A stretch of DNA of 64,000 nt from Roridomyces roridus (lineage: Eukaryota; Basidiomycota; Agaricomycetes; Agaricales; Mycenaceae), in contig JARKIF010000023.1 in the NCBI GenBank assembly GCA_029378245.1, positions 682,001 to 746,000 on the forward strand. The letters run 5' to 3'. Made by a program: the position numbers and the translations under genes. Of this stretch, positions 58,899 to 62,546 are shown in pieces. Each line of letters opens with the position of its first letter. Positions within the stretch are counted from its first letter, which is position 1. The notes beneath the pieces were generated by a model. It did not search any database, was not told the origin of the DNA, and worked only from the letters and a program-made list of their open reading frames with translations.

Positions 58899-61800
58899 TT
58901 ACACCAAGCTCGCCGGCACGTCGCACCCAAATGCGACGTTGCCCTCCGTCGTAAATGTAACAATATGATCCCCGAGGGTCCGCGTCTTGAACGCAGCTTC
59001 GCAGTATGAGCTGCAGATCAGCCGTTACTTAATTTCCCGTGTTAGTTGAATGAATGAAAGGACTGACAAGTAGTCTGCAGGTAAGTTGGGGCAGTTCAGA
59101 ACTCCAACCACTGTGAAAACATCGGCGCATGAATTTCATGTCGCAGTGCCATGAACAAGCAGAATCAGGGGCCGTGGGCTGAAATGAACATATCATGCAC
59201 CTGGGGTCATTCAGGCATTATTGAGTGATTTTGACTTACTCCGCGCCAAGGACAAAATCATGGTCTCTTTGGTGATTTTCAGGAACAGTTCCGCTGAATT
59301 TGCGAAGCCGAAATCATGGGAGAAATGCATGAAAATCAACGAGAAAGATGGAAATGAACATTGATCAAGCTAGGGTGTTCTTCAATCGATCTGTACCCCG
59401 TCCGGACATCCCTCGACGACCACGCTGGTCCACGGTGGGATATTTGAGCGGAGACGGACTTGAGAAGGGCGGAAATTCATTGTGTGGAGCGGCTGCTGCG
59501 GATGAGGTCAGTGGTGTCACGCCTGTCACGGCGCTCCACTCCTTCCTCCCAACCGTCACCTCCCTTCTGCCCCCGTCCTCCTCTTCCACTCGTTCGCCAC
59601 AGAAGCCCCCCATCGACTCAACTACATGCCAATATACACCTCCAGGCCATTCTCACACCCTCACGGCGCTTGTGGGACTTCCCAGCGACCACACGTCTGG
59701 CGGCGTGCCCAAGCCGCCGTGGCAGTCACAATTAGGTGTAGAACTCGATTCCGACTCACTGCGGAGGCCAAAGGGTATCCGGTGCGTCGCTGATTCTGCT
59801 TCATTCACTCTGTTCTGACCCAACAGGAACCCAAGAAGTCCTCAAGTCAGCGGCGGTCAGAATTGGAACGCCGGCGGCGGCGACTCTCGCTCCGATCTCC
59901 AGTGCGTACCCCATCCATTGCTCTTGATGCTACGAGACCTTCCCGTTCCGCTTCACGCAGCTCGAGGTATGTACTGTTTTTCTCCTCGGGCCGGACACCT
60001 TCTAATCAGGATGAGTCTCAGCCGAAAGTGAAGTTATCGACTACAATGATGCGGATGGTGGAGGCGAGAGTGAGCGGGTGCAAGTAGCAGTGTAGCACAT
60101 CGTTGTATCACGTACATTTAAGTAGTTTGAAATTCACATTCCTTTCATCTGAAATTCGGGGTCCCAGGGAATAATATTCATTATCATACGGCCTGACTCA
60201 AATTGGACTCACTGGCTTCCCAGTCATTTTCATGTTAAGAGGACATGAAAATGGCACATGAAAACGTCGAAAACGCACATGAATCAAGATTGCGTACTTC
60301 ACCGAAAGGGAGGTGATTTTAATGCGCGTCGCTTTGATATTCATGCAATCCAGACATGAATTGGGGGGTACCGAGGGACATGATTTTCATGTGCCCCGGG
60401 TTGTAGAAAATAAAGATATATGTATGCACGGATGGCGAATACAGGCTTGCTTTTATACCTTTCTAGTAGCTAGGATACCGTAGATAGAGACGAAGAACAC
60501 AGCCAAGTATCCCAGCGAACGAACAGCCTTGTGGCGTACGGGAGGCGTTTCATCACTACGTTTGATCGCTACGAGACGGTTGCATGCACTGCTCGGTGGC
60601 GTGCACTGCCCGTCTCTTCGCTCTGGTTTGCTTCATACCACGACGACTCCAACACGGGTCTCACAGTGAACAAAGTAGACGAAGAAGGATGACTTACAAA
60701 TCCATTTCCGCCTGAACACTTCCAGGCCCTGCTCATCCAAATCATATTCCTCCCTCAACACCTTCGCAACAACTCCATCACAATTGGCCAAGAACCTCCT
60801 CTTCCATTCGCGTAGTGTCCGTGCATAGTGAGGCCCGATGTTGAGCACTGAATCCATAACGAGGCGTCCGCCGCTGCCTTGATTCAACGTCTTGACGATT
60901 AGGCTGAAGCTCGGCAGGTATCCACCCGGGAAGACTAGAGTCGGATTGGTTAGCAATCCGCGAAGTGTGTTGAAGGACCAACTCTAAAGGAATTCAGCTT
61001 AGTTGGCAGAGCAGGCAACAGGTCAATCTACCCATTTTTGCACAAAGTCGGCGCCATTCTCGTCGTACCCTCGAACGCCTAGCAAGGTTGATTAGTTAGT
61101 TGGTGCCGTCGACAAGAGGGAATTCGACAAGCAAGCAAGCAATCACTCACGGGATTCCGGGATAGTAATCCCCTGTACGACCCCAACCCCCGTCTCAGGG
61201 TTCAGCGCCCAATCAGCCACGGCCCAATATCCCTCAAAGAAATCCTTCCCTACGTGTTCGATCATCTCCACCGAGATAAACCTGTCGAAAGACCCCGCCC
61301 ATTCGGGGTTCTTCCTACACTCGCGAAAGTCCATGCAGTGGACTTTGATTTGGTCGGAAAGCTTGGCGTCGGCGATACGTTGGCGGGCAAGTTCGGCTTG
61401 GTTGGACGATAGAGTGATGGTGTCAACGGTACAGTTGAATGTTTTTGCGGCGAGGATTGCGAGGCTGCCCCAGCCGGTGCCTGGTATTCAATTCAATGGG
61501 ATATCATATTCGTTCGCATCCACGCACCAATTTCCAGCACCCGCTGCCCGGGTTGAATATTCCCCTTCTTGAGAATCAACCTAACACATAGGAGGATATG
61601 TACTAAACGGTTGCACAGCAGATTGACCGGTGACCACGTACCTGAGCTTCCTCATTTGTGCTTCCTCCAACGACTCGCACACGGAAACAGTAGGATCGAG
61701 ATCTTCATTATAATCCAAGAAAACCGCCGACGAATAATTCATATCTTCACTCAAAAACGCCGAGAACCTGAAACTCTTTGTCATTTATTTTGTTTCAAGG

Positions 61801-62546
61801 GGGCTGGCATTGAACTGACATAGTGTTCCCGAAATCGTAGTGCGCGGATATATTCGCTCTTGAATTTGTGAGGCTTTCAATGAATTTGCTGCTCGTCAGT
61901 GTGCGACCTTTGGCCACCAACAACGTGTCCACCGCTGTCAGCTCTCGCCGGTTGGCGATTAAAATCTTGGTTCGTTCATCAGCGTCGATTGATAGACAGA
62001 AGGAGCGACGGATGACTGCTGACTTGTATTAGAGAAGACACGTCCTCGCAGTCGACTTGGCGGATCGTGGCAAGGCAAGTGTAAGCAACGACCTCCGGAA
62101 TTCAAAAAATATGCCTGCGTACCGTCACCAAACATGAACGCCTCGGCCAGCCCCATGTCTGTGAAGAGACCAACCCGCACCCAAAAGGCATCCGACTTGA
62201 CATCCAAAGTTGCTCGCAGATCGGCGTCGAGCACTCCAAAATTGTACGTCTTCTCCTTCGTCAAGACAGTGATTTTCCCGACCTTGATTTTGCCGAGAAC
62301 ACTGGAATGAATGAATGAATGATATATCGGATAAAATCCGGAGGGTCCTCACTCTAAAATTTTGGCGCGCGCAATAGGATGCAGAGCTCTCCACCCCGTA
62401 CCGACGACTGCCTCCGTGAAGGTACTCCACGTCGAGTCCAGCGCGCTCATGAGTGAGTATCCGTGCGTCGCAGGTGTGTTAAACAGCTGCGACCGTGAGT
62501 ACATCGACATTGAGATTGAGAAGGAAGGAGGGAGGGAGTCGCCCAT
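58899..62546 (-). CDS. Cyclopropane-fatty-acyl-phospholipid synthase-like SAM methyltransferase
   Basis: The enzyme transfers a methylene from S-adenosylmethionine to double bonds of membrane-lipid acyl chains. ATG 62546 opens the first exon (to 62353), and the second is 62301-62123. Landmarks: SAHYDFGNTM, MNYSSAVFLDYN, the SAM motif VLEIGTGWGSLAIL, ITLSSNQAELARQRI, FISVEMIEHVGKDFF and VVQGITIPES. The exon with GLEVFRRKWI ends at 60698 with one spare nt and a gtaagt donor. The family C-terminus YYFSYCEAAFKTRTLGDHIV then needs a 7-nt exon (59074-59068) and the last exon (59010-58899), which join in perfect phase. The intron in between is 1623 nt. If it were not spliced, the protein would end at 60633 without the conserved tail. 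Confidence 0.88.
59068..59074 (-). other. Seven-nucleotide microexon of the CFA-synthase gene
   Basis: On the minus strand ACTACTT is framed by an acceptor ctgcag and a donor gtcagtcc. It supplies exactly the nucleotides needed to turn the spare T of the previous exon and the leading C of the last exon into Tyr-Tyr-Phe, the residues expected before SYCE in this family. Confidence 0.8.
59348..60095 (+). CDS. Possible nested gene in the CFA-synthase intron
   Basis: On the strand opposite the host gene, an ATG frame (59348-59781) encodes a Pro/Ser/Thr-rich protein and ends at a gtgcgt donor. Continuing through 59827-59901, a 6-nt piece (59962-59967) and 60022-60095 would keep frame and end with an acidic tail (IDYNDADGGGESERVQVAV). 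There is no domain, signal peptide or membrane helix. The short third exon is doubtful. It may be part of an inserted element, since catgaaaa motifs crowd both sides. Confidence 0.3.
60225..60253. repeat. Perfect 11-bp hairpin with catgaaaa motifs
   Basis: cattttcatgt and acatgaaaatg pair around a 7-nt loop. Further copies of (c)acatgaaaa occur at 60257-60265, 60344-60356 and about 60381-60394, and a related catgaatttcatgtc at about 59129, all within the long CFA-synthase intron. Confidence 0.7.

Follow-up and report, generated by a model that had tools for sequence, protein, structure and literature searches.

In Roridomyces roridus, two ultra-short exons, one of a single nucleotide, probably complete a CFS1-like cyclopropane-fatty-acyl-phospholipid synthase gene that carries nested transposons in one intron

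The C-terminal half of a CFS1-like gene of Roridomyces roridus, a bonnet mushroom of the Mycenaceae in the order Agaricales and class Agaricomycetes, is very probably assembled by way of two ultra-short exons, a single-nucleotide exon (A, at position 60983) and an exon of 7 nt, and one of its introns has been inflated by nested transposable elements. The gene lies on the minus strand of the window, the whole 64-kb stretch of DNA analysed here, on contig C146 of an assembly of 90.8 Mb. Moreover, we consider it likely that the single-nucleotide exon is constitutive and that, with its 7-nt companion (in one group of copies also a 9-nt one), it has been kept in the CFS1-like cyclopropane-fatty-acid (CFA) synthase family since before the split of the family into two groups, probably across the Agaricomycetes. 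It would then be the first exon of its kind in the Basidiomycota, conserved more deeply than any other known, and most public models of the family would have been corrupted by leaving it out.

RESULTS

The gene and its copies

Judged by its domain and its relatives, the gene is a CFS1-like cyclopropane-fatty-acyl-phospholipid synthase. Its catalytic part matches the CMAS domain (PF02353; E 2.4e-57; score 194.8 bits, cut-off 27; found with a 503-aa model that is revised below), and its closest public relatives go by the names of mycolic acid cyclopropane synthetase-domain protein, cyclopropane-fatty-acyl-phospholipid synthase and CFS1-like protein; cfs1 is a gene named, in the portions available to us, in papers on fruiting-body development. 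The gene extends from 62546, or more likely 62510, to 58899. Exon 1 of the gene model occupies 62353..62546; its second Met (MSMYSRS, 62510), at which the public R. roridus protein P0001 begins, is probably the conserved start. Upstream of MS[ML]YSRS, the residues are poorly conserved in copies C334 and C68. P0001 is identical (100%) to the enzyme of the window over 90% of the query. Scans of the 64-kb window against Rfam and for tRNAs gave no match.

Four further copies were compared with that of the window, C146: C334 and C68, which are close to it, and C223 and C88, which are more distant. Pairwise dN/dS between copies is 0.10-0.13, and 0.05-0.09 over the last 47 codons, values that point to purifying selection on the copies. 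Apart from one intron of 1,623 nt, the introns of the C146 gene measure 47-72 nt, those around the single-nucleotide exon included, in keeping with the remark in the preliminary description that introns are normally about 50 bp here; across the three close copies, the remaining introns measure 47-73 nt.

The 7-nt exon

The preliminary description had placed the end of the gene 1.6 kb past its last obvious exon, to be reached only through a 7-nt exon, and our re-reading of the sequence at 59074-59068 and of the flanking introns found the coordinates, phase and residues of that exon to be exact. The last obvious exon (60698..60934; TC TTC CCG ... AAA TGG ATT T, encoding [I]FPGGYLPS...RRKWI) is followed by the 1,623-nt intron (GTAAGT...CAG, 59075..60697), the 7-nt exon ACTACTT (59068..59074; Y-Y-F, with split codons), an intron of 57 nt (GTCAGT...TGCAG, 59011..59067) and the last exon (58899..59010; SYCEAAF...ASLV*), which ends in TAA; all lie on the minus strand. 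The 7-nt exon is preceded by ...ACCTGCAG and followed by GTCAGT. Joining 60698 to 59074-59068 and on to 59010 yields ...RRKWIYYFSYCEAAFKTRTLGDHIVTFTTEGNVAFGCDVPASLV*, that is, RRKWI-YYF-SYCEAAF with the full C-terminus, and so restores the family C-terminus WIYYFSYCEAAF; skipping ACTACTT shifts the frame.

Eleven AG-N7-GT candidates occur in the interval, a single one of which spells YYF; the remaining candidates within the long intron lack the family residues and were rejected. We enumerated the products possible at this site that keep the family length, allowing GT-AG or GC-AG introns no shorter than 35 nt. For the 1.69-kb interval of C146 there is no one-intron solution, and of 26 two-intron products one fits [IVLMT]YY[FYL]. 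The exon is the sole solution in C334, while C68, C223 and C88 allow one or two alternative two-intron products each, all without YY; C223 also permits a one-intron GC-AG product, ICTFC, again without YY. A 7-nt exon sits in the same place in all four paralogous copies, as ACTACTT in C334 and C68 and as ATTACTA, giving YYY, in C223 and C88.

Orthologues were expected from the preliminary description to carry Tyr-Tyr-Phe here, and they largely do. Our homologue set holds 216 distinct proteins among the matches listed, 20 from lgn/jgi-only sources and 196 annotated. The former, one of which has a jgi name, lie on contigs of 1.5-6.1 kb; we treat them as spliced transcripts because their frames run uninterrupted on such contigs, as the frame of an intronless gene would too. 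Among the matches listed, YY[FYLW] is present at the site in 18 of the 20 lgn/jgi homologues, the exceptions being P0205, which ends before the site, and P0211, which has YFF, and in 123 of the 196 annotated proteins. Nine of 11 distant paralogous loci in the same genome read uninterrupted through the site, with HYM, QYL, LYL, RYL or AYM; the remaining two loci do not include it. The E. coli enzyme Cfa (6bqc) aligns without a gap, as ftYYl, and 5z9o, another solved bacterial enzyme, has LYL rather than YYL. By the DNA of the gene and its relatives, the 7-nt microexon is flanked by canonical splice sites, needed for the frame and conserved in relatives: an ordinary, if well-conserved, microexon.

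Public models miss it. The preliminary description predicted that gene callers would truncate the gene at 60633, and P0001 indeed ends ...RRKWIFVVV, matching the TGA at 60635-60633. The residues of the YYF site are also missing from the other R. roridus models P0002 (KWICASYC), P0005 (KWICTSYC) and P0143 (KWICTCYC).

A nested insertion in the long intron

The marks of CACTA (EnSpm) elements are terminal inverted repeats of the form CACTN and target-site duplications of 3 bp, and those of Copia LTRs are TG...CA ends and a 5-bp duplication. Both sets of marks are found in the long intron. An element with 1,302 bp of its own sequence and terminal inverted repeats CACTGTGA... (59109..60668) starts with CACTGTGAG at 60668 and ends with CACAGTG at 59109, and the 3-bp duplication GTT flanks it on the left (60669..60671) and on the right (59106-59108); CACTG ends and a 3-bp duplication place it with CACTA. 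It is split by a solo LTR of 253 bp (60402..60654), which lies within the CACTA terminal repeat, reads TGTTGG...CTACA and is flanked by a 5-bp duplication, ACCCG, at 60655-60659 and 60397-60401, as expected of Copia; seven uninterrupted CACTA copies have ACCCG once. Because none of the four internal ORFs listed has a Pfam match, to a transposase or otherwise, the CACTA element is called non-autonomous and grouped by its ends only.

A genome search with the 1,623 nt found at least 44 matching places, that of C146 included. Full-length matches run from query base 295-297 to 1589-1598, and four further CACTA copies are 98% identical among the matches listed. In all seven other copies examined (L002-L008), and thus in eight of eight with C146, the element is bounded by a 3-bp duplication of its own. 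Besides the C146 copy, the genome holds at least 17 full-length 1.3-kb copies at 94-98% identity, as well as subfamilies at ~84% and ~73%. The first 296 nt of the intron match LTRs, including five LTR pairs ~4.7 kb apart, and the one full-length LTR relative examined encodes RVT_2, copia-type gag and rve (integrase) domains, so that the solo LTR has relatives with paired LTRs and a Copia pol.

Without the insertion and one duplication, an intron of 60 nt remains, which can be aligned to its counterparts of 63 and 67 nt in C334 and C68; among the five copies compared, C146 alone carries the insertion. The target-site duplications and the transposon-free introns of the paralogues mean that the length of this intron comes from a nested transposon insertion and is no intrinsic feature of the microexon. 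We propose that the CACTA element inserted first and the Copia element, now a solo LTR, afterwards, taking the intron before the 7-nt exon from 60 to 1,623 nt. Apart from its position in an intron of a coding gene, the nested insertion is itself ordinary.

Does the C146 allele still work? Possibly the insertion broke it: the 1.6-kb intron would stay unspliced, transcripts would have their ends inside the transposon, and the protein would break off after RRKWI, like P0001, the 7-nt exon being real only in the paralogues and in the past of this gene. We hold this to be a serious possibility, though not the favoured one. The branch site CTAAC that lies 17 nt before the acceptor in C334 and C68 has been lost from the inflated intron (60697-59075), whose 1.6 kb greatly exceeds the range of 47-73 nt seen in the other introns of the three close copies; hence the C146 allele may splice poorly. 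Two close transposon-free paralogues could cover its function, its public model is truncated, and nonsynonymous changes are slightly commoner on the C146 branch (21 nonsynonymous and 45 synonymous, versus 15/42 and 12/38 on the others). Against a broken allele, the GT and AG of both introns are intact and the last exon is undamaged. The last 47 codons show no relaxation either, but the insertion is too young for this to carry much weight: with the closest CACTA copies 98% identical, it looks recent, so the intact frame says little about function since the insertion and the low dN/dS (0.10-0.13) reflects mostly the time before it.

A probable single-nucleotide exon in KW-I-FPGG

A second exon, absent from the preliminary description, appears to be needed by the same gene. 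The exon that ends in ...DFVQKW (AAA TGG; 61032..61078) and the exon that begins with FPGG are separated by an intron of 48 nt (GTAGAT...TTTAG, 60984..61031), a lone A at 60983 (ag|A|gt), which would supply the first base of the Ile codon in KW-I-FPGG, and a further intron of 48 nt (GTTGGT...CTCTAG, 60935..60982), all on the minus strand. From ...FVQKW, which ends at 61032, to FPGG the frame is one base short, so that a join by a single intron is impossible. P0001 reads the second 48-nt intron as coding; we rejected the corresponding 503-aa model (SWSFNTLRGLLTNPTL, 16 extra residues) because, in the alignment, the stretch holds an in-frame TAG in C334 and C68 and because relatives have one residue there.

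The same arrangement recurs in five of five copies, at 60983 and at loci L047, L048, L049 and L050. In each, the stretch from AAATGG to TCTTCCC (95-118 nt) contains one AGNGT, which is always AGAGT and leaves introns of 44-63 and 48-54 nt. We enumerated all products that keep exactly two codons, with GT-AG, GC-AG or AT-AC introns of at least 35 nt and with a second intron allowed across the join left by the first. One-intron solutions were thereby ruled out, none being found, and the sole two-intron product in all five copies is TGG-A-TC (W-I), reached by the removal of two adjacent introns in either order. An AG-N-GT that the frame needs, with no other canonical solution of family length, is thus present in every copy. 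In C223 (L049) and C88 (L050), a 9-nt exon, AGGAAATGG, lies directly upstream of the single-nucleotide exon. The branch motif CTNAY is absent from the intron upstream of the single-nucleotide exon in C146 and C334, and CTAAT is found in C68; since five of the 11 introns of the C146 gene lack CTNAY near the acceptor, the motif is a weak test.

Homologues agree on the length of the junction. Among the matches listed, the site is spanned by 19 of the 20 lgn/jgi homologues, each of them with exactly one residue there (17 I, 1 V, 1 L; proteins with KH-I-FPGG are counted as fits); 18 of the 20 fit both this and the 7-nt site. Of the 196 annotated proteins listed, the junction holds exactly one residue in 54 (33 V, 20 I, 1 F), two in 78 and three to seven in 17; it is not recognisable in 39, and eight proteins lack FPG. 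Those that fit both sites number 51. In the first 120 proteins listed, 36 of 39 two-residue inserts begin with V, which may be the GT of the intron itself, read after the gene caller had moved the donor by four bases. An A exon does not account for exact Val in place of Ile, found in 33 of the 196 annotated and one of the 20 lgn/jgi proteins among the matches listed; this Val may stem from a G exon, from another junction or from an artefact of the gene caller.

Sequences that run through the sites without a break serve as length markers. Seven of the 11 distant paralogous loci, some of which are near-copies of each other, read uninterrupted through the single-nucleotide site, the rest not covering it or not being readable there. 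E. coli Cfa (6bqc) aligns gap-free as kyIFPnG, and Ile holds the position of the single-nucleotide exon in E. coli and other bacterial enzymes. The intronless bacterial homologue L063 has VDWIQKHIFPGG and WQYYFSYCEAAF at the two sites. A search with a DNA pattern for fungal C-terminal exons found one bacterial locus in genome_contigs, which provided this intronless length marker, and no match in viral_contigs; it gave no DNA of other mushrooms. The CFA synthase of L063, from a Verrucomicrobia MAG, closely resembles the fungal CFS1 family at its C-terminus (WQYYFSYCEAAFATRTLGDHH).

Instead of a single-nucleotide exon, a non-canonical splice site could in principle supply the extra base in KW-I-FPGG, as could a stwintron, in which an internal intron splits the donor or acceptor of an external one, a class described in other fungi, so far as the accessible part of the report goes (PMC12403724). 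The exact Val of 33 of the 196 annotated proteins among the matches listed would suit TGGG|T.. donors. Yet the enumeration, which covered the non-canonical pairs GC-AG and AT-AC, returned only TGG-A-TC from adjacent introns in five of five copies, a donor at +1 would be TA or TG, and 17 of the 19 lgn/jgi homologues among the matches listed have Ile, with one V and one L. Every two-step solution found consists of two adjacent introns, so a stwintron was rejected, and the alternative as a whole is improbable. Least probable is a coincidental match of the short exons, with these residues missing from the true protein or exchanged for others: AGAGT alone is not rare, shuffles with a suitable one (both introns at least 40 nt) making up ~1% for C146 and C334, 1.6% for C68 and 6-6.5% for C223 and C88, but the same site recurs in two paralogue groups in exact frame and with conserved residues, and the bacterial and distant-paralogue length markers and the lgn/jgi homologues agree with it. 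As the five copies represent only about two independent lineages, a chance AGAGT in both would be unlikely but not absurd, and the residues are the stronger evidence for a single-nucleotide exon.

DISCUSSION

How the two exons may be spliced

Both ultra-short exons lie inside strongly conserved motifs, KW-I-FPGG and KWI-YYF-YCEA, and both occur in the two CFS1-like groups, so that most likely they predate the split of the groups. From this anatomy we infer that both would be spliced in R. roridus, and constitutively so. Intron definition is the generally accepted mode of recognition for short introns in fungi. It seems plausible that the introns flanking each microexon are likewise recognised as units and removed one after another: removal of one neighbour would merge the microexon with a normal exon, and the second intron would thereby gain a full-sized exon. 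With stepwise removal, the single-nucleotide exon would never need exon definition. For the 7-nt exon of C146, removal would begin with the 57-nt intron downstream, and the inflated intron would follow.

The putative single-nucleotide exon, present in five copies between introns of 44-63 and 48-54 nt, offers a compact natural system for splicing questions, namely how the spliceosome copes with an exon too short to seat two complexes, and in which order the introns are removed. The 7-nt exon adds a natural experiment within one genome, in which it stands beside an intron of 63 or 67 nt in two paralogues and of 1,623 nt in C146. Gene-annotation software usually misses a 1-nt exon. Among the matches listed, 145 of the 196 annotated proteins do not fit at one site or at both, a few perhaps because they do not span them; each of the four R. 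roridus models examined (P0001, P0002, P0005 and P0143) is among these misfits.

Comparison with known microexons

The literature examined, in the parts accessible to us, names two nuclear single-nucleotide exons, those of Arabidopsis APC11 and of a Fusarium CYP621A, and the CFS1-like case would be a further one, apparently widely conserved. Titles and the openings of abstracts in the open-access literature, a scope outside which most subscription journals lie, mention neither a basidiomycete single-nucleotide exon nor a microexon in cfs1. At the level of small exons more generally, plant microexons are, in the accessible portions of two studies, pervasively misannotated (PMC8831610, PMC12409088). 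The exons described here resemble them as conserved exons of at most 15 nt that are hidden from gene callers (PMC8831610, PMC12409088), and differ from them in belonging to a fungal lipid-enzyme family.

The nearest parallel in plants is APC11, where, according to the accessible text, a 1-nt exon A lies between AG and GT, is missed by annotation and is needed for the frame; its authors proposed intron definition and stepwise removal (PMC4674806). The CFS1-like exon shares with it the base A, the AG and GT flanks, the miss by annotation and the need of the frame. The APC11 exon was tested with reporter constructs and lies in a 422-nt stretch annotated as an intron (PMC4674806), whereas that of R. 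roridus sits between two fungal introns (44-63 and 48-54 nt), occurs in several paralogues and is predicted from sequence.

The CYP621A P450 exon of Fusarium is presented, in the part of the paper available, as the second known single-nucleotide exon and the first in a fungus, and all but one of the public transcripts are stated to be wrong at it (PMC12940212). Like it, the CFS1-like exon would be a fungal single-nucleotide exon inside a conserved motif, with an intronless relative as length marker. The CYP621A exon belongs to one genus of ascomycetes, consists of a G and is supported by SRA reads (PMC12940212). In contrast, the putative CFS1-like exon is found in the Basidiomycota, consists of an A, occurs in two paralogue groups, is combined with 7-nt and 9-nt exons and, by the evidence of proteins only, is probably present in many Agaricomycetes.
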